Source: a virus
Reading direction: 5' to 3' (one strand)
DNA length: 26,331 nt
Virus record (IMG/VR): IMGVR_UViG_3300027836_000036
Coordinates: 1-26,331 of that record
Both the position numbers and the translations under genes were made by a program. Below the pieces are notes generated by a model. That model saw nothing but the letters and a program-made list of their open reading frames with translations, did not search any database and was not told the DNA's origin. Position 1 is the first letter of the stretch. The number at the start of each line of letters is the position of its first letter. Below are positions 1-24,969 of the stretch, in pieces.

Positions 1-3000
1 CTGCGACAAATATATTATTGACACCGCCAAATGCTAATGTTGTCCAAGTTCCTGCTGGCAGATTACCCCCAGCGGTCCAGTCGCTCCCAGTTAGTGAATA
101 CACTGAAGTTCCGGCGGTTGAAATGCCAACAAATCTTCCGTTACCAAAGGCTACTGATTTCCAGTTACCGACCGGCATTCCTTTTAATTGCGCTTGAAAC
201 GGTGGTTCTACAAATCTAATACTTGGCTCAATTGAGTATACAGTAGTTGAATCTAGAGGCGCCACCGCCGCTGTTCCTGCTACAATGTTTTCCCATCCTA
301 CAGCATGAACAGTCATAAAACTACCTACAGTTTGTGTAGTGACTGTTGCAGCGGTACCACCCGGTACAGTACTAACCGCAAATCCTATTAACGAGTAGTT
401 TGCAGCAATAACGTAGTATAGTTGTCCTGCTGTTAGTCCACCTAACATGCCACCTGCAACAACTGACATAGAACCAGTAGCATTTGCTAGTGTAAATACG
501 CTCCCACCTGATGTTGCGCTTATAGCAACGGTTGATCCTATAATATTATTAATATAATATTGAGTGCCACTTACAATATTTCCAAAAGTTGACCCGCTAA
601 ACACAATTAGCTCTCCAACATACATGTTAGCAGTTGATGTTAACGATACTAAATTGTTAACTCCTGTAATAGCAACTGGTGCTAGTACTGTTCCGACTGT
701 TTGCCCAATGCTAACTCTCCAAGTACTGTTGGCACTAAAGCCTGAAATATTTGCTTCAATTCTAGTGTTCCCAAGAATAGTTGATCCGGATAACACCATT
801 CCTACAGCGATTGCTCCACTTGTTACTGAAACGACATATAACGTAGTTCCTATAATATATCCAGCTGATATGTTAACAACAGTCCTTGACGTTAAAAATC
901 CTGTAGTGTTCTGTTGGTTTGGAACCATCACTACTGCGGTGCCTATTGGGAATAACGTTGCGTCTTGGACTGAAATTATGTTATTTGTAGCAGAAGTTGC
1001 TGAAGATGTTAGCGCAGTAGTACCTTCTTTTGCTACTGTAACTATTTTACCTACAGCATCGTAATACGCAATATATCCGTATTGTCCAACTCCAGTACCG
1101 CTGGTAATAATTACTCGCATGCCGTAATATTCGTCAAACGTATTTTGATCATTTGACGCAATTGTAATTGTTTGAGTATCACCGGCCTGGGCCTGGTTGC
1201 CAGAAGTTAAATATCCGCTTCCGCCTGCTTCAAAATCTGATCCTAAAATTCGAGATTCAAAAATACCGTTATCTCTAAATTCGTCAGCAATTACACTAGC
1301 ACCTGTACCCGCACCTGTAAACGCAAACGATGCGCCTGTATAATTTTGACCAGCATTGCTAAATTCTAATTTAAGAAGCTTATTAGTGGCCTCTCCAATA
1401 AATGCTGATGCTATCTGAGCGTGTTGATTTCTATTATTAACAGTGCCAGTAATAGGAACTTCAGTAAGGTCAAATCCTTCAGCCACGCATCCGTAATCCC
1501 CATAAGATGTATTTCCGTTAGTAGCACGGATTCTTCCACCGTTTTCTGCTAGATACCCGCAGTGACTATAGTAGGCAAACACCGATACTAATTCTGTTAG
1601 TGAAGACGGGCCGGTACACCACACACCAATGCCTTCGCTAATCAGTGTAGTATAATCGTTAGCAACAATAGATCTATTTCCACCGTTATGTAAAGTTCCA
1701 TCAATCTTTAATCCAACGCATCCTTTTCCAAATAATGTAACGTTTTGAGTGTACGGTGACTTGGTAATAATGTGTACCGATGCGTCATCTGGACCAGTTC
1801 CTGGATCTAATGACGTATATGCGCCGCCGGTTGGTCGCTTAGAACCGTATGAATTTGCGGGGCCTAATCCGCCAAGTAACCCAGTTAACGTCATATTGCG
1901 AATTCCGCAAGCGTTACGAACGTAAAACATATCTTTAATTGCGTCACCGCCGTATATTGCCGCTGATTGATCTACAGTATCTGTTAAGGTTAGTGGAATA
2001 GTACCATTTGAGGTAAATGATACTTGAAATGTTGTCGGTGTGATTGACGAGCCGATTACATAATATGTTCGTCCGGAGTCAAGACCTGCAAATCCGCCAA
2101 GCGTTGCTGTCATTGCGCCTGCGGCGTCAATTTGAGTAACAATTATTGAGCTGCCGTACGCGGCACTTACTGTGATTGTTGCAGTTACAGAATCGTATGA
2201 TTGTATATAGTACGTTGTTCCTGCTACAATATTTCCAAAAGACGATGGACCAGTAAACACTACTGGCATATTAATATATGCTCCAATAGTAAAGCCTAAC
2301 GTAATTTTATTACCAGCTGCCGATGTTGATGTGGCTGTGGTAATAATTGTAGGCGTTACTACTTGTATGTTTATATTTGGTGTAATTCCAACTGTGGTAT
2401 TTACAGTGATTCTATTAGTAGTCGAACTTGAGGCTGTAGCAACACAATTAATAATAACTGCTGGTTGAATAACTGTGCCTCGTAACTCGTCACCTACTAA
2501 GGCAACACCTGCTGGAATTTTAATCGGTAGTGTTTCATTGTAAGTACCAGTTTTAATATTAATAGTTGCCGGGCCCACTAGTGGACCGTTTGGCTCACCA
2601 GGAGCCGGAGAGCCGCCGCCCTGCTCACACGCATACTTGACCGTTTTCCATGCTGTTTGAATTGTTAATCCGTAATCTGGTCGGTCGGTTCCTGTTGGGG
2701 AGACATAATAAACTTTTCCAATGATCCCCCAACTGTCCCATGCTGGGACAGATAGTGAAGTGCTTGACGAAATTTTTGCTTTTAATAAAGCGCCGTCTAC
2801 GCCAATTGGAATAGCAGCCGGAACACCCTGATCAAACGATTGTATATCACCTTGTGATTGCAAAGTTTCAAACTGCTCGCCTCTAATATAGATGTCCCAG
2901 TTACCATTAGGAGTTGTAGGCGGAAGTGCTGACAGGTGAGTGTTTGTACAAATGTATGCTGTTGAATAATACGTTACCACATCGCCGATAGTGAACGTTG

Positions 3001-4198
3001 TACTAATTACCCAACGATTCATCCACTTCATACTTGGAATAACAATTTCCCAGAACGTGGCATTATTTAATGTGTCTTGATTTATACTGTCGGCAACCGC
3101 AACATACAAATAGCCGCCACGTCTTACTAGGTCGCCAGTTCTATACGCAACACCGGCGTTCCATTCATTACAAATATTATAATTCTTTACAAGTAGAGTC
3201 CAATTTGCTGTGCTTGTTGAGGGAATATTTGCAATATTGTTTGTAGTATTACTAGTGTATTGGTAACCACCATAGGTAACTATGTCGCCTTTGATATAAT
3301 AGACTGTAGCGTCCCATGCGTTAACAAATTCTAATCCTGGTAGCCACACAGAAAAGTTATTAGTGTCAAATCCAATGTCAGATGTATGTGAAGTTACACA
3401 AATATATAGATCAGCACCATATTTTACAATGTCATTTAATTTATATCGAGTACTTGCGGTCCAGTATGTTTTGTATTCTATACCGTTGTGTAATACACTC
3501 CACTTACTAATATCAGGATCAATCCCGGTAGCAAGGGTGGCAGCAGATGTATGATTTAGTGTACAAGTATATACAATTCCGCCATATCTAACAATGTCGC
3601 CAATTTTGTATCTAGTACTAATAGCCCAGTCGGTCTTCCACTCGTATCCGTAACTTAGTAAAGTCCAGTTACCACTGTCTGCTTCTAATCCTAACGTAGA
3701 TGTCGCCGCGCTGGTGTGACCATTTATACATTTATAAATTCTACCACTATAGCGCACAAGATCATTTAATTTATATCTACGGGATGTTGTCCAATCAGTT
3801 GTCCAATTTTCAGAAATAGCATAAGCTGTCCACTTGCCTTGATCAATTTCTAGCCCTAGTGCTACTGTTGATGCGCTAGTATGGCTGTCGTTACAGATAT
3901 AAACTATTCCGTTATATCTAACATAATCACCTAGATCATAAAACGTACTACGTTGCCAGTCACCCTTCCACTCATATCCGTCAAACCATAATACCCATTT
4001 TGGATCAGCAAGGTCTGGTTGCGTCGCAGTATTAATAAATTCTAAATCAGTATTAAAATCAGCTGAGGAAGTATGCCCTACTAAACATACATAAGATTTT
4101 CCGCTGTATCGAACGATGTCGTCTTTAGTATAGACGGTGGCGGTTGCCCAGTCTGATTTCCAAGTAAATCTAATTCTGTTTAATTTAAATTCTGCCAT
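1..4198 (-). CDS. Giant adhesin-like virion protein with carbohydrate-binding-like repeats and beta-helix (C-terminus off the edge)
   Basis: The frame is open from the ATG at 4198 to base 1 without a stop (1399 codons), so the C-terminus lies outside the window. A GAGGT Shine-Dalgarno sequence sits 5 nt before the ATG, and a perfect late promoter lies just upstream. Residues about 10-437 hold eight tandem repeats of about 50 residues with the pattern W-x-Y-x2-GD-x-V-x-Y-x-G-x2-Y-x-C-x3-HTS, resembling ChtBD3/CBM5-12 carbohydrate-binding modules. From about residue 496 a YYVSPTGTD...AWKTVKYA...IPAGVALVGDELRGTVIQP-like segment opens a right-handed beta-helix (pectate-lyase-like fold). The same motif occurs in the two other large proteins of this window. 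The last visible residues (GNWKSVAFGNGRFVGIST) look like a beta-propeller-type repeat. I infer a tail-fibre or other surface structure that contacts host glycans. Enzyme activity is not shown. Confidence 0.85.
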   Translation of the reverse strand, partial: MAEFKLNRIRFTWKSDWATATVYTKDDIVRYSGKSYVCLVGHTSSADFNTDLEFINTATQPDLADPKWVLWFDGYEWKGDWQRSTFYDLGDYVRYNGIVYICNDSHTSASTVALGLEIDQGKWTAYAISENWTTDWTTSRRYKLNDLVRYSGRIYKCINGHTSAATSTLGLEADSGNWTLLSYGYEWKTDWAISTRYKIGDIVRYGGIVYTCTLNHTSAATLATGIDPDISKWSVLHNGIEYKTYWTASTRYKLNDIVKYGADLYICVTSHTSDIGFDTNNFSVWLPGLEFVNAWDATVYYIKGDIVTYGGYQYTSNTTNNIANIPSTSTANWTLLVKNYNICNEWNAGVAYRTGDLVRRGGYLYVAVADSINQDTLNNATFWEIVIPSMKWMNRWVISTTFTIGDVVTYYSTAYICTNTHLSALPPTTPNGNWDIYIRGEQFETLQSQGDIQSFDQGVPAAIPIGVDGALLKAKISSSTSLSVPAWDSWGIIGKVYYVSPTGTDRPDYGLTIQTAWKTVKYACEQGGGSPAPGEPNGPLVGPATINIKTGTYNETLPIKIPAGVALVGDELRGTVIQPAVIINCVATASSSTTNRITVNTTVGITPNINIQVVTPTIITTATSTSAAGNKITLGFTIGAYINMPVVFTGPSSFGNIVAGTTYYIQSYDSVTATITVSAAYGSSIIVTQIDAAGAMTATLGGFAGLDSGRTYYVIGSSITPTTFQVSFTSNGTIPLTLTDTVDQSAAIYGGDAIKDMFYVRNACGIRNMTLTGLLGGLGPANSYGSKRPTGGAYTSLDPGTGPDDASVHIITKSPYTQNVTLFGKGCVGLKIDGTLHNGGNRSIVANDYTTLISEGIGVWCTGPSSLTELVSVFAYYSHCGYLAENGGRIRATNGNTSYGDYGCVAEGFDLTEVPITGTVNNRNQHAQIASAFIGEATNKLLKLEFSNAGQNYTGASFAFTGAGTGASVIADEFRDNGIFESRILGSDFEAGGSGYLTSGNQAQAGDTQTITIASNDQNTFDEYYGMRVIITSGTGVGQYGYIAYYDAVGKIVTVAKEGTTALTSSATSATNNIISVQDATLFPIGTAVVMVPNQQNTTGFLTSRTVVNISAGYIIGTTLYVVSVTSGAIAVGMVLSGSTILGNTRIEANISGFSANSTWRVSIGQTVGTVLAPVAITGVNNLVSLTSTANMYVGELIVFSGSTFGNIVSGTQYYINNIIGSTVAISATSGGSVFTLANATGSMSVVAGGMLGGLTAGQLYYVIAANYSLIGFAVSTVPGGTAATVTTQTVGSFMTVHAVGWENIVAGTAAVAPLDSTTVYSIEPSIRFVEPPFQAQLKGMPVGNWKSVAFGNGRFVGISTAGTSVYSLTGSDWTAGGNLPAGTWTTLAFGGVNNIFVA

Positions 4199-4933: not shown

Positions 4934-7900
4934 TTATCCAAATATCAATGCTGATGCGATTCCAAGGCTGTTGGCTTCAATGGTTGTAACACCGCCAGAC
5001 GCACCTGCTACGCTAGTCCAAGTAACACCGTCAAATACTTCAACAAGTTGTCCAGTGGTATTAAATCTAGTCATACCTATTTCAGTAGTAAGTGGTCGAT
5101 CAAGAGAACCGTTGCCAGATGGTATCACTACTCCGTTTGTTCCAGCAAATTTTACATACCCTGTTCCAGTGCTGGTAAATTCTGTAACGGCATTTGTTGC
5201 TACGTTAGTAATAGAATTATTATAAATTCTTAAATTTCCTAATCTAACACCACCAGTTCCTGTTGCTGTTAAATTTAAATCTGTCCCTGAGGTAATACTA
5301 GTAATTGTACTGCCATTTAAATCTATATTGCTTGTTTGAATTCTTTCAGCAAACAACTTAGTACTATCAATAGTTACCATTAAGCTGCCGTCGGCATAAA
5401 AATATAAGGTATTATCGTTTGCGCCCGGAGTTGCCTCAGCAATGATCTTTGTGTTGCCGTCAGTATCTTCAACACCGCTTAGTGTTTGCCAATAACTACC
5501 GTTGTACCCTTCGTAACGATTTAAATCCGTATTAAATCGTAACATACCACTATTCGGTGTGCCTGGTCTTTCTGATGTTCCGTTACCTACTGGAATTTGT
5601 AAACTTTGTGTGTTATTAATAATTACATTGCCAGTGCCTTGCGGAGTAAGAATAATGTCGCTGTTAGTAGAAATACTTTGAATATTATTATCACTAACTT
5701 TGATATTTTCAATTACTACATTACCTAACCCATTAGCTTGTAATTGTAAATCTGTTCCAGTTGTCGATACTACGTTATTTTCAATTCTTACTTGCGGTAA
5801 TTGCAAATACCCAGTACTAGTAATATGTCCAGTAATATCTAAATCGCCACTAGAAGTAAAATTACCAGTTTGAATAATATCGCCAGTTTGTGTAATAGTG
5901 CCAACTACTGTAGTATCTTTTAAGTAGGTTGTTCCTGTAGTAACTGTTAAATCATTGCCAACAGTTAAGTTTTGATCAAACTCAACATCATTACTTGGAA
6001 CAACAATCTTTCCAGTGCCGTTTGCTGACAAGGTTAAATTATCATTACCAATAGTGGTGCTAATTGTGTTACTGTCAATAACTAGGCCGTCAACTTCTAA
6101 TCTGCTTAGATATGCGTTGTTCCAGCGTAGGCTGGGAGTACCTAAATCATAAAATGCTGTTGTAGCAGGTACAAGGTTACTATTAATTCCGGCAACAAAA
6201 CTAATAGTGTCAGTGGTCTGATCACCAATTTGTATATTGCCGCCAATATTTATATCACCAGTTACGTCTAAGTTACCTGTAACAAAAGTATTATTTTGTA
6301 AATTAATTGCGCCACTGGCAGCCGTTACAATAATGTCGCCAGTTAAGCTGTCAATATTATTATCGTGAATTCTAATATTGCCAGTTGTGATATCTGACGG
6401 AGTAATTGTTGTAGTATATACACCGTCAGTAAATATTACACCGGTAGCACTGGTAATTGTTAAAAGCTGTCCGTTGAATACTACTTCGCCTGTTTTTTGA
6501 TTAACGGAAAACCCATCACCGACTGTAAAATTACCTTCGTTATCTACCGCAGTATGATAAATCTTTGCGCCGTTTAATTGTACAAATTCGTTAGCGGCAA
6601 TTCGATCATTAGGATCGTTAGTTATTAATTTTCCAGCACCTACATACGCAACGTTATGGCTTACAAAATAGCCAATAACTCCGATACCGTCACCGTACAC
6701 ACCATAATCGCCATAGATACTTGCTGAACCAATTGATCGAACTTCAACTCCAAAGTCGCCGTAGTCAGCAAAGTTGATAATAGTTGCTGTTCCGCCGTCG
6801 CTTGTTCTTAAATCTTGATACGTATTGCCATCATCAAAAAATGTTGTACTATTGTTTGTACCATTAAAATGTAATAACACTACAGTATCTAAGTCACTAA
6901 ACAATGTGCTTGTCGGAACTGTCACTGAAGTTGTGTATTTTGCTACACCTTTGACCACGCGAACTTCATCAATGTATCCTGTACTCGGTGCTCCGCCGGT
7001 CCAGCTAGCCCCCATTCTAAATGGTCGTGCTGGATAGTTAGTAGAGTCTGTCCACGTTGTTGGTGTTAGCGTCCCGTTGACTGCTAATTTAGTGACGCCA
7101 CCGACTCTAAATAGTGCTATGTGATTAAATGTGCCTGCTGTACAAGCTACTGATGATGTTATTCGATATGCGTTGCTAACAAATAATCGAATATTACCAG
7201 CAGTATTCATTTCTAAATACAATGCTGTATCGTTACTGGCAGTTCTACAGTCTAATAAAATTTGTTGAGTTCCGAGAGCAGTTGGCCTCCAAAAGAACTC
7301 AAAGGTAAAATCTCCAGTACCATATTCAAAATCTGGTTGCGACGTTATAGTAATATAGTCGCCGTCACCATCTAAAACTAAACTTGCTGTTCCAAATTTC
7401 TTCTGTGCGGTTGATAACTTAGCATCGCCTTGCGGGTATACTGTTTTGCCAATACGGTCTGTTAATGTTTCAAAGCCTAAACACCGCCCAGTAAGATTAA
7501 CATAATTGCTGTCAATACTGTCAATAACGCCGCTGGCTAAAAGTGTTGTACCGTCAGTATCATAATAACTTAAGGTATTTCCAACAGCCCAAGTACCAAC
7601 ACGAGTATTAATACGTAGTCGTGTTAACCCTGCGCCGGCAAACCCTGAAGCACTTGAATATAAATTAAATCCTTTGTCAGCAAAATAACTAAATGAGTTT
7701 AACCACTCGATGCGCACACCGTTTGTTGCTGTAACTGTTTCTTGATTAGGTGTAAAAAATGTAACGCTGTGGAATAGTATACTAGCTTCTTTACTTAAAA
7801 CAGTTGCTACGCTACCATCAGCAAACACCCCTTTACCTGCGTCATTTTGATCAAATCCATACGGGTCACTTGGACTTGTCACGCTACCGCGAGTTAATAC

Positions 7901-8983
7901 TGTTATATTTTTAATGTAGGGACTACGAGTAGATACTGTAAATCCTGTAGCAAAACGGAAGCCATATCCGGTATCATTTGTACCGTTGTATCTAAATCCA
8001 GTAACAGTTAAATCTTCAATAGTAGTTTCGCCGTTGAGTAAGAACGCATCTTTATCAACCGTTCCGACAGTAGGTTGAATAGTAACAGCGCGGATTCCAG
8101 AGCCTTTAACTGCTACTCCAGCAGGAATAGTTAAGGGAAATATTTCAGTATATACACCAGGATAGATATAAACAGTGTCGCCAGTGCCTGCTAAACTTAA
8201 CGCATATTTTAGAGTAAGTACCGGATTATTTTCGTGTTCACCTGCGTTAGAGTTGCTACCTGTAGTAGCAACATAATAGATATTGCCCTGTGGTAATTCT
8301 AAATTAATTCCATTAATTGTAATGCCAGCAGTAGTAATGCTAGTAGACTGAATATCAGTAGTATAAACATTTGCCCATCGTTTAGAAGTAGATCCTAAAT
8401 TATAAAGCGGAGTATATAACGGAGATTGATTGTCTGGAATAATGTTACTAGCAACATCAGCTTTGAAATCAACGGCGTCTGTATTAGCATCACCAATTGT
8501 AATCTGTCCGGCAGAGTCGCCGTCAACTTGTAAATTACCAGTTACGTGTAAATTACCGTCAATAAATGTATTGCTGTTAATATTTACTTGACCCGTGCCT
8601 AGCGTATTAAATGCTAAATCAGCATCGGTAACTGTTGTACTAATTGCGTTAGATGTTAGTTGTAAGTTACTATTAACTTGAAGTTTACCTTGATAAACTA
8701 CAGCGTTTGCTCCGCTTGGTTCTAAGTTAATAGTTGAGTTTGAACTTGCTATTGTATTGCCGCTTACTGTAAAAGTAGCAATTGTTGTTTGTGTATCTAC
8801 TATAGCATTTGTTGAGCGGACTGTTCCGTTGACGTCTAAATCGTAGTCAGGTGTGCCAGTGTTTATACCAACGCGGCCATTAATAACATCAAGATAGAGT
8901 AGGTCTGTCTCAAAGGCTAAATCAACTCCGTCACGAAGAAGATTGGACTTTAAGAGCGGACCTGAAATGCGACCAACAGCCAT
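4934..8983 (-). CDS. Beta-helix fibre-like structural protein with LamG-like insert, about 1349 aa
   Basis: The ATG at 8983 is chosen over an in-frame GTG at 9001. A strong AAGGAG lies just upstream of 8983, and the paralogue at 9105-12776 begins at the equivalent place (GRI-x-GP...LLRDG-x-DLAFETDLLYL). The N-terminal region carries repeated TGNLxVxG strands and an SNIIPD...LGSTSKRWANVY module. A beta-helix follows (YYVATTGSNSNAGEHENN, then IPAGVAVKGSGIRAVTIQP). Residues about 515-720 form a LamG/concanavalin-A-like domain (FGTASLVLDGDGDYITI, FTFEFFWRP, YIDEVRVVKGVAKYT, DTVVLLHFNGTNNSTTF), which the paralogue lacks. The C-terminal third repeats the SNLVP...LGTPSLRWNNAY module and ends with GMTRFNTTGQLVEVFDGVTW. 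I infer a trimeric, surface-exposed virion protein that may bind glycans. Confidence 0.88.
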   Translation of the reverse strand: MAVGRISGPLLKSNLLRDGVDLAFETDLLYLDVINGRVGINTGTPDYDLDVNGTVRSTNAIVDTQTTIATFTVSGNTIASSNSTINLEPSGANAVVYQGKLQVNSNLQLTSNAISTTVTDADLAFNTLGTGQVNINSNTFIDGNLHVTGNLQVDGDSAGQITIGDANTDAVDFKADVASNIIPDNQSPLYTPLYNLGSTSKRWANVYTTDIQSTSITTAGITINGINLELPQGNIYYVATTGSNSNAGEHENNPVLTLKYALSLAGTGDTVYIYPGVYTEIFPLTIPAGVAVKGSGIRAVTIQPTVGTVDKDAFLLNGETTIEDLTVTGFRYNGTNDTGYGFRFATGFTVSTRSPYIKNITVLTRGSVTSPSDPYGFDQNDAGKGVFADGSVATVLSKEASILFHSVTFFTPNQETVTATNGVRIEWLNSFSYFADKGFNLYSSASGFAGAGLTRLRINTRVGTWAVGNTLSYYDTDGTTLLASGVIDSIDSNYVNLTGRCLGFETLTDRIGKTVYPQGDAKLSTAQKKFGTASLVLDGDGDYITITSQPDFEYGTGDFTFEFFWRPTALGTQQILLDCRTASNDTALYLEMNTAGNIRLFVSNAYRITSSVACTAGTFNHIALFRVGGVTKLAVNGTLTPTTWTDSTNYPARPFRMGASWTGGAPSTGYIDEVRVVKGVAKYTTSVTVPTSTLFSDLDTVVLLHFNGTNNSTTFFDDGNTYQDLRTSDGGTATIINFADYGDFGVEVRSIGSASIYGDYGVYGDGIGVIGYFVSHNVAYVGAGKLITNDPNDRIAANEFVQLNGAKIYHTAVDNEGNFTVGDGFSVNQKTGEVVFNGQLLTITSATGVIFTDGVYTTTITPSDITTGNIRIHDNNIDSLTGDIIVTAASGAINLQNNTFVTGNLDVTGDINIGGNIQIGDQTTDTISFVAGINSNLVPATTAFYDLGTPSLRWNNAYLSRLEVDGLVIDSNTISTTIGNDNLTLSANGTGKIVVPSNDVEFDQNLTVGNDLTVTTGTTYLKDTTVVGTITQTGDIIQTGNFTSSGDLDITGHITSTGYLQLPQVRIENNVVSTTGTDLQLQANGLGNVVIENIKVSDNNIQSISTNSDIILTPQGTGNVIINNTQSLQIPVGNGTSERPGTPNSGMLRFNTDLNRYEGYNGSYWQTLSGVEDTDGNTKIIAEATPGANDNTLYFYADGSLMVTIDSTKLFAERIQTSNIDLNGSTITSITSGTDLNLTATGTGGVRLGNLRIYNNSITNVATNAVTEFTSTGTGYVKFAGTNGVVIPSGNGSLDRPLTTEIGMTRFNTTGQLVEVFDGVTWTSVAGASGGVTTIEANSLGIASALIFG

Positions 8984-9000
8984 ATGCGCTCCTTTATACA
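8984..9000 (-). promoter_or_regulatory. Shine-Dalgarno sequence that fixes the start of the 1349-aa gene
   Basis: On the minus strand TATAAAGGAGCGCAT precedes the ATG at 8983. AAGGAG is well placed for 8983 but would lie inside the coding frame if the GTG at 9001 were used, so the shorter form is preferred. Confidence 0.75.
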
Positions 9001-9084
9001 CCGAGTTTCACGGATAACCACCTTGCATTGCGGGTTTACCACAGTCGAATATCGTAAAAGTTTGGTCAACTCTTACAGTAATAG

Positions 9085-14749: not shown

Positions 14750-15445
14750 TTATTGGTTGGCAATAGTAACTTGTGAGTTTACTACTGTTGTAGTGAACGA
14801 CCACTTAGCAGTTTCACCGCTGTCAAACTGTGTGCCGTCAATAGGAACAAGTGTAACTTTATGTGCTGTTAGTTTCTTAACAAAGTAAGTTCCGCCTACA
14901 CTGTCAGTAGCTGTAATACTCATTTCGTTTTCGCCAAGATCTGATGTAGTAACTAACTTACATACTGCGATGCCGTCACTTGTTTGAACTTTATAACGTC
15001 TTGCGCTAGACTGTTTAATAATGTCACCTGTAGTAACTTCACTACCTGCTCCAATTTGTGCTTCGACTAGAATACCGTTTTGACGAGCAGTAGCACCAGT
15101 AGTCATTGTTGCTGTTAGTACAATAGTACCTGTACCTGCGCCACCTAATGCTTGTAGGGCTGCGCCACTGATTGTTACTGTGCCGGTATAACCAGAACCT
15201 GCTGTAACAACTGCAACTGTAGCGGTACTAGCAGTCACATATGTTAAAGTCATTGTTGGTTTTGCGCCACCGGTAATTTGTGGAGCACTAATTACACTTG
15301 CTGGAATATCATATGTACCTGGTGTTTTGCCATCAAATGTACCAGTAACTGCTACGCTGGCAACTGATTCACCGCCAACGTTTGCTGTACCAAAGTCTTG
15401 ATAGTTTGTGTTAGCGAAATATTTTTTATTTAGAGGACGTCCCAT
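14750..15445 (-). CDS. Capsid-decoration-like structural protein, 231 aa
   Basis: This is a 231-aa protein with a strong AAGGAG Shine-Dalgarno sequence, starting MGRPLNKKYFANTNYQDFG. The MGRPLNK-KYF start is, from memory, typical of a structural protein encoded just after gp23 in marine T4-like phages. The centre contains ATVAVVTAGSGYTGTVTISG, a glycine and threonine-rich beta motif. The C-terminal half (DIIKQSSARRYKVQTSDG, VTLVPIDGTQFDSG) is also beta-rich. It is the first gene of the unit driven by the late promoter at 15534-15541. It sits where coliphage T4 has the vertex gene 24 but shows no resemblance to gp24 or gp23. I infer a head surface or decoration protein. Confidence 0.75.
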   Translation of the reverse strand: MGRPLNKKYFANTNYQDFGTANVGGESVASVAVTGTFDGKTPGTYDIPASVISAPQITGGAKPTMTLTYVTASTATVAVVTAGSGYTGTVTISGAALQALGGAGTGTIVLTATMTTGATARQNGILVEAQIGAGSEVTTGDIIKQSSARRYKVQTSDGIAVCKLVTTSDLGENEMSITATDSVGGTYFVKKLTAHKVTLVPIDGTQFDSGETAKWSFTTTVVNSQVTIANQ

Positions 15446-15533
15446 TTTGTTTTCTCCTTAAGAAATAATGGCGTTTTAGGCCGTACGCGGTTGGATTTCC
15501 GCATAAAACTTACCCTGTGTAAGTCATACAAAG

Positions 15534-15541
15534 TATTTATC
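15534..15541 (-). promoter_or_regulatory. T4-type late promoter, GATAAATA
   Basis: The minus strand reads GATAAATA, 7 of 8 matches to the T4 late box, with only the first base different. It lies directly after the gp23 terminator and about 88 nt before the ATG at 15445. It is positioned to restart transcription for the decoration and fibre operon. Confidence 0.65.
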
Positions 15542-15544
15542 TGA

Positions 15545-15573
15545 TCAAGAGAAAGGGCTCCGAAGAGCCCTTT
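15545..15573 (-). terminator. Rho-independent terminator after gp23
   Basis: A perfect 9-bp stem (AAAGGGCTC/GAGCCCTTT at 15552-15560 and 15565-15573) has a UUCG loop closed by C-G. On the minus strand it is followed by a pyrimidine-rich TTTCTCTT tail. It starts 28 nt beyond the gp23 stop and ends the head-gene transcript. Confidence 0.85.
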
Positions 15574-15600
15574 GTAATAAACAACCTCTCGGTATGTTGA

Positions 15601-16773
15601 TTAGCTAAACTTAACGTTTCCGTAAGTTGTGCTTAGACCAACTTTACCTAGGTAGTCAGCTGCATTACCTAAAGAAGAAGCTGTATTTGATAACTCAACA
15701 TAACCATAACGTGTCATGAATGATACGACTGGTTCGAATGTTGATGGATCTAAAACAACACCACTGCTCATCAATGGAATGTATGGGCAATAGAATGCTG
15801 CCGCATCAGACTCTGATGAACCTTTGTAACCGATCAATACGTCTGTACTGTCGTTTGCGTAGCTGTTTACATAGATCTTCATTGCTGAGTTCAATGTACC
15901 AACAAACTTAGTGTTTGTAGGAGCTTCGAATGTACCTTCTGTTGTACGAGCAAATGCGCTTGTAGTAGCAGATTGTAGAATGGTTAAAGCAAATGGACTT
16001 ACTACTGCCCAGTTACCAGCACCACGACGTGTACGCTGAGCGATTAAGTTAGATACACGGTTGATTTGAACTGCCAATGCGGCATGCTCGTCACCAACGA
16101 ATGTAGCTGTACCGCTAACGTTTGCTTGGTCATAAACTTCTGTTGCTGAACCAGCTAAACTTGCTAATGAAGCAAGAATTTCTTGGTCGATTTCAGCTGT
16201 GATTTCTTGTGCCAATGCAGCCATAACTTCAGCTTCGATATCAATACCTTGCTGAGCTTGAGCATCTTGTGCAGCTTCGAAAGTCCAACGAGCACTTAAC
16301 TTACGTGTCTTGGCTTCAACAGTCTGTTTCAAGATCTGAATTGACATACGCTTACCTGCAGCACCTTCAAGAGTTGCTGTAGAAGCGGCTTTCGCTGGAT
16401 CTGCGTTGTTACCTGAGTAACTTTCAGCAATTTTGAATGGGCTTAGAGCCTCTTCACCAGCTACAACGCCATTGCCATTGTCTGCGTAACGAACACGTAG
16501 AGTATGGATTTGGCCAACTGGTCCAGTCATTGGTTGTACACCAACTAACTCGTTAGCGATAACGGTTGGCATAACGCGACGGATTACTGGAAGAATCACG
16601 CGATTTAGTGTTGCGACGTTGCCGGCAGAAGTGGCACCAGCAGTTGGGGATTCCATCAAATACTTGCGAGTATTGTCAAGTGTAACACCCATTACTGATT
16701 TTTTAGTGCCTGATAAGCCTTCTAATAGGGCTTCTTTAGTTTCTGCCCAACGGCCATTAAGTAGTTCTGACAT
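15601..16773 (-). CDS. 23: Major capsid protein, gp23 family
   Basis: This is the HK97-fold major head protein of the T4 superfamily, which forms the capsid hexamers. Diagnostic segments are ATLNRVILPVIRRVMPTVIA, then NELVGVQPMTGPVGQIHTLR (about residues 55-94), GKRMSIQILKQTVEAKTRKL and RWTFEAAQDAQAQQGIDIEA, and the C-terminal SFMTRYGYVELSN. A strong AAGGAG precedes the ATG. At 390 aa it is clearly shorter than coliphage gp23 (521 aa) and the usual cyanophage versions. A plausible gp21 cleavage site is L39-M40-E41, matching the T4 (L/I)-x-E rule and removing a 41-residue propeptide. It is the last gene of the head operon and is followed by the terminator. No second gp23/gp24-like copy is present. 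Confidence 0.97.
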   Translation of the reverse strand: MSELLNGRWAETKEALLEGLSGTKKSVMGVTLDNTRKYLMESPTAGATSAGNVATLNRVILPVIRRVMPTVIANELVGVQPMTGPVGQIHTLRVRYADNGNGVVAGEEALSPFKIAESYSGNNADPAKAASTATLEGAAGKRMSIQILKQTVEAKTRKLSARWTFEAAQDAQAQQGIDIEAEVMAALAQEITAEIDQEILASLASLAGSATEVYDQANVSGTATFVGDEHAALAVQINRVSNLIAQRTRRGAGNWAVVSPFALTILQSATTSAFARTTEGTFEAPTNTKFVGTLNSAMKIYVNSYANDSTDVLIGYKGSSESDAAAFYCPYIPLMSSGVVLDPSTFEPVVSFMTRYGYVELSNTASSLGNAADYLGKVGLSTTYGNVKFS

Positions 16774-21531: not shown

Positions 21532-23859
21532 TTAGCCAAATCTATTGCCACTTAACCCGTCAATGCCACCTGCTGTCTTTTCAGCGTGACCTGCGGTTCG
21601 AACAAGCGCATCAAGACTTTGTGCTGTTAGCTTATTTAAGTTATTTAAAGCATTTAGTACGTCACTATTGAATGAATCTGTAGCTACTGGTGGAGCAATA
21701 TTAGTTGGTTCTTCTGTGGTTACCGATGTTGGTGCCGCTGATTCAGGAGGTTTGGACGATTGAGCCATAGAGGATGTAGCATTTTTTAAGTTACTAATCA
21801 TATCTCTCGATGCTGATGCCGCTGAATTGTCAGCTGGTGGTATCATAGACTTAGCCATATTGGCCAACTGTCCCGGATCAGGCTGTTTAATATTACCAAT
21901 CATGCTGGTAAGTTTCTTATCATCAAAGCCGCTTGGCATCTTCATATTGCTAAACGTACTAGACATCTGCTTTTGCATGTCGCCCATCATAGGTGTCATT
22001 TGCTTCTGCATGTTTTCCATCATAGGACTCATTTGCTTCTGCATGTTTTCCATCATAGGTGTCATTTGCTTCTGCATGTCCCCAAACATCTTACTTGGAT
22101 CCATTCCTCCAGTTAATGATTTAACATCAATAGCTGGCGGTTTCATTCCAGCCATCATTTTGTCTAAGCCTGCTTCACCGCCAATAGCATCATATTTTTT
22201 AGCCTTTGACGGATCTAATACATTCTCACCTTTGGAAATACTCAGTATTGCATCTTTTGGTTCAAATCTTGAATTAATTTCACCTTCGGTTCCAGTATGA
22301 CGCTTTGGTGGATATAAGTTCGGAACCCTCGGAGTGTTTTCTGTTTGCTGTTGGCCTAATGGTTTTTGTCCGGTAGCAGGATTACCTGCAATGTCTCCTG
22401 ATGTGTATCTACCGCCGCCGACTTTTCCTGATACTTCATTTAACTTGCTAGCAAAATTATCTAATCCTTTGATAACTCCGCCAATAGCTTTAACTTCGGC
22501 GTTGATCATCTCGTCTCTAACTCGAGTATTTGCTTGATTACCTGCGGCCAATGCTTCATCACCGGCTCGTCTATTACCATTAGCATCAACACCTGCTATG
22601 GCTCTATTTGTTTGTTCTTTACTGTATGCCGCTACTTGCTGAGGATCGCCTGATAAACCTTGACGTTGAAGATCAATAGATTGTGCTTTTTCTTTTTGTA
22701 AGTTTGGCATCCTTTCTTTCATTAGTTCTAACATTGCTCCGTTAGTACCGGATGGTCCGCCTCTGCGTTCAACTTCTGCCATCTGCGTAAATTCTCTTGA
22801 ACGCATCAAAGTGTTAACTTCCATCTTTGCCGTTTCAAGACGCATTTCTGCTGCCTTTTTCTCTTCTGGTGACCCGCCACGTTCAGTTACATCTTTTAAG
22901 TTTCTAATAGCGTCACTAAACTCGACACCTTGCGATCCTAGGGCGCCCTGAGTCATGGCTGCTTTATCGCCAGTAACACCCATATCAGATGCCGCTTCAA
23001 GCGCAAGATTCTGTAATGCTGGACCAAGCCCAACTAACTGGGGCATGAGATCACTTAGTGCTTCATTTTGTTTTTCATCACCTTCCAAACGCATTAGCTG
23101 CATTTGAAGACTTTCATTCATCGCACGATTTTGCTTGTTAATTACATCTGTACTTTGGCCTGTTGCTTGACTTTGCTGAATAGTACTTTCCGTCATTTTC
23201 TCAAGAGATCTTAGTGCAGCATCTTTTGCTTTTTTATCGTTTAAGTCTATATTTCCGTTTTGCGTAATCCAAGTATTAGTATAGGTAGCCAGCTGTTCCG
23301 ATGATAGACCAAATGTCGATTGTAGTTGTTTAGCAACATCTGTCTTTTTAAACTCGTCCTGGAAGCTGGTTAACTTTTTCATAGCTTCGCCACTTTGGCC
23401 GCTAACGCTAATCAAGTTCTTAGCCATATCCTCTTGCTGTTTAGCAAACTGCTCTTGTGATAATCCACTTCGAGCACGAGTTTTTTCCATGTCTAGCAGG
23501 CCACCAGTAAAAGCAGTACCAGCATTTAATTGCTTTTGATAACTGTCAACTGACCCTGTTACAACTTTATCTACAGCTCCAAACGCTGCCACCGCGCTGT
23601 TTGCGCCAATTGGTAGTTTTCCTAGTGCCGCTCCAACTAACCCAACAGCACTAGCAGTGGCTGAGCTTGAACTGCCAAGTTTACTAACACCGGTTATGCC
23701 TTCCGCAAGTGCTTTGTCCCAGCCGGCTGTAAAGCCAAATGTAGTGGCCGCTGGTGTAGCAGAAGGAGTGGGAGTAGGAGATCCACCTTTTCCGCCTATT
23801 GCTTTAGCAATAGATTCCGAGAATTCGTCAACCGTCATGTCAGCAACTTTTGTTACCAT
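21532..23859 (-). CDS. Large virion protein, tape-measure-like
   Basis: The protein has 775 aa, and AGGA precedes the ATG. The N-terminal 50 residues end in a Pro/Thr-rich linker. A hydrophobic Ala/Gly/Val segment at about 68-105 (ATASAVGLVGAALGKL) could span a membrane. The middle (110-480) is long, helical and rich in Gln, Glu, Lys and Met. Residues 590-632 carry an 11-residue repeat, MQKQM(T/S)PMMEN. The extreme C-terminus (LNALNNLNKLTAQSLDALVR, then a T-x2-GIDGLSGNRFG end) resembles the C-terminal signature of many tape-measure proteins, as does an upstream FEPKDAILSISKGENVLDP segment. It is adjacent to the gp26-like tail gene. I infer a tape measure or another large internal tail protein, by style only. 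Coliphage T4 has gp19 at this place upstream of the portal. Confidence 0.6.
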   Translation of the reverse strand: MVTKVADMTVDEFSESIAKAIGGKGGSPTPTPSATPAATTFGFTAGWDKALAEGITGVSKLGSSSSATASAVGLVGAALGKLPIGANSAVAAFGAVDKVVTGSVDSYQKQLNAGTAFTGGLLDMEKTRARSGLSQEQFAKQQEDMAKNLISVSGQSGEAMKKLTSFQDEFKKTDVAKQLQSTFGLSSEQLATYTNTWITQNGNIDLNDKKAKDAALRSLEKMTESTIQQSQATGQSTDVINKQNRAMNESLQMQLMRLEGDEKQNEALSDLMPQLVGLGPALQNLALEAASDMGVTGDKAAMTQGALGSQGVEFSDAIRNLKDVTERGGSPEEKKAAEMRLETAKMEVNTLMRSREFTQMAEVERRGGPSGTNGAMLELMKERMPNLQKEKAQSIDLQRQGLSGDPQQVAAYSKEQTNRAIAGVDANGNRRAGDEALAAGNQANTRVRDEMINAEVKAIGGVIKGLDNFASKLNEVSGKVGGGRYTSGDIAGNPATGQKPLGQQQTENTPRVPNLYPPKRHTGTEGEINSRFEPKDAILSISKGENVLDPSKAKKYDAIGGEAGLDKMMAGMKPPAIDVKSLTGGMDPSKMFGDMQKQMTPMMENMQKQMSPMMENMQKQMTPMMGDMQKQMSSTFSNMKMPSGFDDKKLTSMIGNIKQPDPGQLANMAKSMIPPADNSAASASRDMISNLKNATSSMAQSSKPPESAAPTSVTTEEPTNIAPPVATDSFNSDVLNALNNLNKLTAQSLDALVRTAGHAEKTAGGIDGLSGNRFG
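21964..22090 (-). repeat. 33-bp tandem repeat encoding MQKQM-x-PMMEN
   Basis: Nearly four copies of a 33-bp unit lie in frame, each encoding a Met/Gln-rich 11-residue repeat. Eleven residues is three helical turns, so the repeat would extend a helix with an unchanged face. Copies differ by a few bases. Confidence 0.8.
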
Positions 23860-23920: not shown

Positions 23921-24748
23921 ATGGCCAATAATCCACTACAGAAGTTCTTTCGTCAACCTAAAATCTTTATTAATTTACCCAGTAAAGGTCAGTACAATAA
24001 TCCCGGAGAAATTACCGGGGATGTTACTAAGTTGCCAGTATACGGTATGAATGGCATGGACGAAATACTAATAAAAACTCCAGATGCGTTACTCACTGGC
24101 GAAAGTACCGTTAAAGTCATTGAAAGTTGTTGCCCATCGATTACCGACGGGTGGACAGTTAGTAACTTAGATTTAGAATTAATATTAGCGGCTATACGTA
24201 TTGCTACCTATACTAATTCTATTACGGTTGGCCATACATGTGAGCATTGTCAAACAGAAAATGAATATGATCTTGAACTTTCAAAAATTATTGATTACTA
24301 TAATCATATTACTTTTGATAGCCGTGCTGTATTAAAAGATGTAGTTGTAAAATTGAGACCGTTGTGCTATAAAGAAGTTACAGAATTTAGTCAACGTAAT
24401 TTTGAATTACGACAAAAATTAGAATCAGCGGCTACTATTGAAGATAGTGTTGAAAAATCTAAAGAAATGTCAAGATTATATGAAGCATACGGATCTTTAC
24501 AAGTAGAAGTATATTCAGCTAACATCACTGCTATTGAAGTAGGATCTACTATTGTTAATGAACGAGCATTTATTAATGAGTGGTTAGTTAATACTGAAAA
24601 ATCCACGTTTGATCAGATTAAAGTCCACATTGATAAGAACACACAACTATGGGAAACTCCTCCGCAACTAGCGCAGTGTGAAAGTTGTGGTAAGGAAAAC
24701 ACACTTCGTGTTGCGTTAGATCATTCATCTTTTTTCGCAACAGCCTAA
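23921..24748 (+). CDS. 26: gp26-like baseplate or tail-assembly protein (T4_baseplate family), zero-frame product
   Basis: This 275-aa protein fits the T4_baseplate (PF12322, gp26) family. Family features are the N-terminal NPLQKFFRQPKIFINLPSKG, the TPDALLTGESTVKVIESCCP block, and the ILAAIRIATYTNSITVGHTC segment. Two zinc-ribbon-like CxxC pairs, C107/C110 and C253/C256, follow. It ends LDHSSFFATA. In T4 gp26 acts in baseplate hub assembly; proteins of this family in other large phages are often annotated as tail-assembly chaperones. It is the only clear gene on the plus strand here. A GGAG Shine-Dalgarno sequence precedes the ATG and a perfect late promoter lies upstream. The codons for S-F-F form a slippery heptamer. 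A -1 shift there would add a 77-residue tail to give a 349-aa protein. Confidence 0.85.
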   Translation: MANNPLQKFFRQPKIFINLPSKGQYNNPGEITGDVTKLPVYGMNGMDEILIKTPDALLTGESTVKVIESCCPSITDGWTVSNLDLELILAAIRIATYTNSITVGHTCEHCQTENEYDLELSKIIDYYNHITFDSRAVLKDVVVKLRPLCYKEVTEFSQRNFELRQKLESAATIEDSVEKSKEMSRLYEAYGSLQVEVYSANITAIEVGSTIVNERAFINEWLVNTEKSTFDQIKVHIDKNTQLWETPPQLAQCESCGKENTLRVALDHSSFFATA

Positions 24749-24791
24749 CTAGATTATCCACCCAGGAAATTGAAGAGTATCTAGTTAGGCT
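24730..24791 (+). promoter_or_regulatory. Candidate -1 programmed ribosomal frameshift signal
   Basis: The heptamer T TTT TTC (24730-24736) is in the correct phase, with zero-frame codons TCT TTT TTC. A 5-nt spacer follows. Then comes a perfect 13-bp inverted repeat, AGCCTAACTAGAT at 24742-24754 and ATCTAGTTAGGCT at 24779-24791, with a 24-nt loop. The zero-frame TAA (24746-24748) is inside the 5' arm. The -1 frame has no in-frame stop from 24694 to 24966. It has no ATG, GTG or TTG before 24823. No pseudoknot partner for the loop is obvious. Confidence 0.8.
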
Positions 24792-24969
24792 TGATAAAGA
24801 AGCAATCGACTTTAAAGAAGAATTGTTTAGAATTAGTTGGTATATGCGAGGTGGCGTTAGTATTAATGATCTAATGCATACCTACAGCTATGAAGACCGA
24901 ACACTAATGTATAAAATTATTTCAGATAATATGGAATTATCTAAAGTAATGCAACAACCGTTTGTTTAA
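24736..24969 (+). CDS. Tail-assembly-chaperone-like extension read in the -1 frame of gp26
   Basis: The -1 frame encodes 77 residues after the slippery site. They begin RNSLTRLSTQEIEEYLVRLD and contain KEELFRISWYMRGGVSINDL, then SYEDRTLMYKIISDNMELSK, and end PFV. The pattern of Glu/Lys-rich helix, F-R-I-x-W-YMRGG, and YEDR-x-L-x-x-KII-x-(D/E)N-x-E is one I recall from small proteins next to gp26-like genes in large phages, sometimes called tail-assembly chaperones. The first ATG in this frame is within YMRGG and would delete half of the conserved part. No Shine-Dalgarno sequence or usable start precedes it. The stop at 24967-24969 overlaps the stop of the opposite gene. I infer expression as a 349-aa gp26 fusion. 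Initiation at a non-standard codon is the alternative. Confidence 0.8.
   Translation, partial: RNSLTRLSTQEIEEYLVRLDKEAIDFKEELFRISWYMRGGVSINDLMHTYSYEDRTLMYKIISDNMELSKVMQQPFV

Follow-up and report, generated by a model that had tools for sequence, protein, structure and literature searches.

Architecture of the locus

The window, by which we mean the whole 26,331-nucleotide stretch of DNA analyzed here (positions 1 to 26,331 of the IMG/VR virus record IMGVR_UViG_3300027836_000036), contains a gene related to bacteriophage T4 gene 26 that ends in a T-rich heptamer, a stem-loop and an overlapping open -1 frame (Table 1). Because the window also carries T4-type portal, prohead protease and gp23 capsid genes, its source is a T4-like phage.

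Table 1. Coordinates of the features at and next to the gp26-like locus (window positions; TAC, tail-assembly chaperone)
Feature	Position	Strand	Basis
gp26-like gene, 0-frame product of 275 aa (TAC-N, short form)	23921..24748	+	PF12322, phrog_150, AlphaFold
-1 slippery heptamer T TTT TTC	24730..24736	+	phase check, conservation
-1-frame tail, 77 aa and stop (TAC-C)	24736..24969	+	conservation, AlphaFold, substitution pattern
Spacer between heptamer and stem, 5 nt	24737..24741	+	
Left arm of putative stimulatory hairpin, holding the 0-frame stop TAA (24746-24748)	24742..24754	+	folding, covariation
Right arm of hairpin	24779..24791	+	folding, covariation
Divergent neighbour, 775 aa, candidate tape measure protein	21532..23859	-	weak BLASTP match

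The product of the gp26-like gene, whose 275 codons are followed by TAA, matches the family PF12322 (T4_baseplate; E=3.7e-12, exceeding the curated cut-off) and phrog_150 (baseplate hub; 5.8e-13). PF12322 was also matched in all aligned relatives of this gene (31/31), and the AlphaFold model of the 0-frame protein has a mean pLDDT of 89. The initial annotation had proposed a heptamer in the right phase at codons 270-272, a perfect 13-bp stem 5 nt downstream with the 0-frame stop inside it, and a product of 349 amino acids (272 + 77), all of which we could reproduce. TTTTTTC begins on the last base of codon 270 and continues through codons 271 and 272 (TTT TTC), which is the phase of the X XXY YYZ class of slippery sites. 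The stem pairs perfectly across 13 bp. Reading -1 from the heptamer joins codons 1-272 of the gp26-like gene to the 77-codon tail (stop at 24967-24969), yielding, by coding capacity, the predicted fusion that we denote TAC-NC, or the long form.

The adjacent gene had been described as a divergent, tape measure-like neighbour. Its divergent orientation stands; for its identity, sequence comparison offers a weak hint, namely a BLASTP match of the 775-aa product to GAP32_244 (E=6e-4), which itself matches tape-measure PHROGs at 1.2e-5.

Elsewhere in the window, a candidate for the Rfam cis-regulatory RNA RF02980 ('freshwater-2') was detected at positions 15443-15524 on the minus strand (67.3 bits against a cut-off of 49.9), in the interval separating the gp23 capsid gene from ORF 14750-15445, which would place this motif within a T4-like phage structural operon. 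Positions 2-4198 (minus strand) encode a large protein (at least 1399 aa) in which eight carbohydrate-binding stretches of the CBM_5_12 type were recognized (E=3.2e-48), and the neighbouring gene at 4934-9001, also on the minus strand, encodes a Laminin_G_3 domain (6e-18); both products are probable adhesion or fibre proteins.

Conservation of the slippery heptamer

Relatives of the locus were found by searching viral contigs with each half of the gene, and dozens were recovered. The in-phase heptamer is present in 43/43 distinct loci, the window included, whereas as a chance control the window itself holds a single copy of TTTTTTC in the -1 phase among its 18 genes and 8,393 codons. Being the sole such copy and kept in every locus, the heptamer is not a chance occurrence. 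It is still in phase in the jumbo phages 121Q, GAP32, PA5oct and Phosso, at 27-31% identity.

The pattern of codon choice around the site is equally regular. Among 27 representatives, the residue ahead of the two phenylalanines varies (N, S, H, A, D, R or G), with the third base of its codon always T (27/27), and the phenylalanines themselves are encoded by TTT TTC in all 27; elsewhere, FF pairs in these genes are encoded by TTCTTT or TTTTTT. Because the preceding codon always ends in T and the pair is always TTT TTC, the constraint acts on nucleotides and not on the protein alone. The codon-usage probability of this pattern is ~1e-29 if the representatives are taken as independent, a value that is overstated given that they are related. 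Cyanophage-type loci follow the same rule, with TTTTTTC in 59 and TTTTTTT in 2 of 61 distinct loci. Among named phages, TTTTTTC lies ahead of the stop in the cyanophages P-SSM2 and S-PM2, in KVP40 and in PhiW-14, and TTTTTTT occupies this position in pf16, phiM12 and HTVC008M.

A covarying hairpin that encloses the stop codon

Downstream structure at about 5-9 nt, which the -1 frameshift class demands, is present in the window as a hairpin with a minimum free energy of -21.0 kcal/mol (z ~ -5 against dinucleotide shuffles). An alignment of 26 sequences from the window's group was used to follow its 13 pairs: standard pairs filled 89.9% of the cells, as against 15-50% in partner-slid controls; 6 of the 13 pairs had changed on both sides in a compensatory manner, and the covariation score was reached by none of 500 shuffles. 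A separate consensus fold of the same group agreed with this hairpin. In two relatives (L017 and L043), the 0-frame stop is displaced to +3 and the GCCTAA arm is retained; since the arm persists where the stop has moved, it is kept as structure and not merely as a stop. No loss of the heptamer or of the stem was seen in close relatives.

Hairpins of unrelated sequence at nearly equal spacing occur in loci L028 and L033, in PA5oct, and in P-SSM2 and S-PM2; no convincing hairpin was found in L025, L027, GAP32 or PhiW-14. A scan of Rfam returned no family matching the frameshift element, and a covarying, stop-enclosing hairpin that is kept in position without conservation of its sequence may be a new detail of such sites.

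The -1-frame tail

The -1 frame is open from position 24694 through to its stop. In the IMG/VR relatives whose tails are complete, the tail is 77 aa long, with R1, W35, M37, R38 and G39 invariant, and conservation extends from codon 1 onward. In tail codons 21-77, substitutions at the first, second and third positions of the -1 frame number 204, 140 and 325, respectively. Because substitutions concentrate at third positions of that frame, the tail is, by its substitution pattern, a protein evolving under coding constraint.

An AlphaFold model predicts that the tail is an all-helical domain (pLDDT 89.5). A tblastn search of cultured phages with the 77-aa tail gave no match, scans of the tail alone against Pfam, PHROG and NCBIfam found no family, and searches of the PDB by fold with both models and by sequence gave nothing convincing. 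The best PDB sequence matches of the tail were ferritins (E about 0.01), which look like shared helical composition and were set aside. A viral fold search gave weak matches only, including the 'baseplate hub assembly catalyst' of Acinetobacter phage ZZ1, a member of the gp51 family (E=3.8, TM 0.48), which we take as a hint from modelled structure.

Frameshifting and its alternatives

The small frame could instead be an independent gene whose translation depends on re-initiation or coupling once ribosomes have reached the gp26 stop, in which case no frameshift would take place. In 121Q, Phosso, P-SSM2, KVP40 and others, an ATG lies at or just past the stop and annotation treats the frame as a gene in its own right, and an ATG within the first tail codons is found in 121Q, Phosso, the cyanophages and some IMG/VR loci (L025, L052 and L061), so that a contribution of independent or coupled initiation is possible in them. 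In the window, however, no ATG, GTG or TTG precedes tail codon 30, a TTG deep in the part of the tail that is conserved from its first codon, and the first ATG is codon 37, the invariant methionine of the WYM motif; the earlier description of this frame as lacking a start codon thus holds in the sense that no usable start is present. In PA5oct, the -1 frame has no start codon of any kind. Furthermore, the relatives that do carry an ATG retain T TTT TTC, and in the cyanophages the early tail ATG is buried inside the hairpin. Since 121Q, Phosso and the cyanophages keep the heptamer in spite of their ATG, frameshifting and separate initiation might both operate in these phages; as an account of the locus in general, a separate gene without frameshifting is improbable.

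Transcriptional slippage on the T run, altering the number of T in the mRNA, would also produce a fusion, and the site is indeed T-rich. A run of about nine T or more is the usual requirement for such slippage, and here only six are present, followed by C; a conserved hairpin at ribosomal spacing and a strictly kept phase fit ribosomal slippage, and we consider the transcriptional route very unlikely. An artefact of sequencing or assembly, or a decayed gene, is refuted by the relatives, dozens of metagenome contigs and finished phage genomes, that share the same break and heptamer, as well as by the coding constraint on the tail; no support for it was found, and its probability is negligible.

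We conclude that one gene very probably makes two tail-assembly chaperones, TAC-N and TAC-NC, by -1 programmed frameshifting. This reading, already put forward in the initial annotation, is well supported by a heptamer, a phase and a -1-frame tail that are kept across relatives and by a hairpin kept in the close group. That ribosomes slip in vivo, how often they do so and what the products bind we infer as follows. Most ribosomes would translate codons 1-275 and terminate at the TAA inside the hairpin, giving the short form, a relative of T4 gp26. A minority would pause at the hairpin 5 nt past the heptamer, slip back one base, bypass the stop and read 77 further codons to yield the 349-aa long form. 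If the two forms act as lambda G and GT do, the tape measure protein would be coated by the short form and the tail-tube subunit recruited by the tail of the long form, with the efficiency of slippage setting their ratio.

Relationship to T4 gp26 and gp51

PF12322 was found in 17/17 named phage genomes, in one of them (P1) only below the cut-off. Both T4 gp26 and T4 gp51 belong to this family (8.8e-64 and 3.9e-52, respectively), and the 0-frame part of the window gene is, by sequence, homologous to both. At its C-terminus, gp51 has about 48 extra residues that share about 30-35% identity with the cyanophage tails, and the KVP40 record itself notes a small ORF resembling the gp51 C-terminus. 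Direct hhalign comparison of the window tails with the cyanophage/T4 tails gave a weak result, for which reason the jumbo-phage tails were used as a bridge: window against jumbo tails yielded E=7e-19, and jumbo tails against the cyanophage/T4 set E=1e-5. A transitive chain of profile matches through the jumbo and cyanophage tails thus gives moderate support to homology between the window and gp51 tails.

T4 gene 26 has no slippery site, and the T4 long form appears to be the separate gene 51. Frameshifting is reportedly conserved in several T4-like groups, and T4 is said to use genes 26 and 51. On this point, the proposal that gp26 and its small partner are the T4-type equivalent of lambda G and GT needs correction. 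One evolutionary scenario is that frameshifting at gp26 is ancestral in the T4 superfamily, with a hairpin fixed in position and fully turned over in sequence that encloses either the 0-frame stop (in the window's group) or an internal ATG (in cyanophages), and that the frameshift was subsequently replaced in T4 by a duplication, giving the separate genes 26 and 51; we regard the chances that this scenario is correct as even.

Several more distant loci depart from this arrangement. In Rhodothermus phage RM378 (L098), the tail-like frame is in +1, not -1, at TCC TTT TTT TGG, and in Sphingomonas phage PAU (L099) it is likewise in +1, with a Shine-Dalgarno-like AAGGAG and an ATG; slippage of the +1/-2 type, or separate starts, may operate in these two lineages. 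Salmonella phage Vi01 (L089) has a plausible -1-frame tail, with neither a canonical slippery heptamer nor an early start codon. Campylobacter phage NCTC12673 (L097, L102 and L103; record positions 15536-16650) has tandem PF12322 matches, the second broken by an in-frame TAA, which are possibly a gp26/gp51-like pair as in T4.

Comparison with known tail-chaperone frameshifts

The initial annotation had considered a frameshift at a gp26 locus of the T4 superfamily to be undescribed, which is not the case. Vladimirov, Gautam and Davidson (2022, Virology 566:9-15), cited by PMC10885494 and PMC12846349, announce in their title the identification of T4-like TAC genes and suggest there a mechanism other than frameshifting, and PMC12846349 attributes to the same work the finding that T4-like TAC-N genes contain poly-T -1 signals. 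As T4-like TAC genes and poly-T slip sites have thus already been described, novelty cannot be claimed, and the window locus is a well-supported new example of a known principle. It shares with the T4-like TAC-N/TAC-NC genes PF12322, the pairing of a short form with a long form extended by a C-terminal domain, and a poly-T slip site. T4 itself differs in that both forms are separate genes without a slip site; in the window, by comparison, the tail measures 77 aa and includes an additional N-terminal helix, and the stop lies within a strong, covarying hairpin.

In lambda, G and GT are produced at a 30:1 ratio, the G part binds the tape measure, the T part binds the tube protein and neither product stays in the virion (PMC5009743). 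The analogy drawn earlier with lambda G/GT is well supported as one of logic by the conserved heptamer, phase and -1-frame tail: here, as in lambda G/GT and P2 E/E', a second domain is appended when ribosomes slip into the -1 frame close to the 3' end of a chaperone gene. The lambda slip sequence differs from that of the window, however, and the candidate tape measure gene of the window is divergent and not downstream. Profile comparisons with lambda G and T detected no similarity (E=0.07 and 0.44); with none in sequence or fold, the locus can be said to work like G/GT, not to be a member of that family. A conserved -1 frameshift at a GTTTTT motif has also been proposed in the TAC gene of the Vandenendeviridae and Andersonviridae (PMC12846349), which resembles the present locus in having a T-rich -1 site in a myovirus TAC gene and differs in the phage group and the site used.

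Implications

These observations add an uncultured T4-like lineage to the known range of the tail-chaperone frameshift and show that jumbo phages and cyanophages carry the same site; in those phages the small frame has been annotated as a separate gene or not at all. The covarying hairpin provides a concrete element for finding further sites of this kind. For T4, the comparison supports the view that gp26 and gp51, which are essential and poorly understood, represent a single chaperone in its short and long forms, so that their roles become testable through the lambda model.
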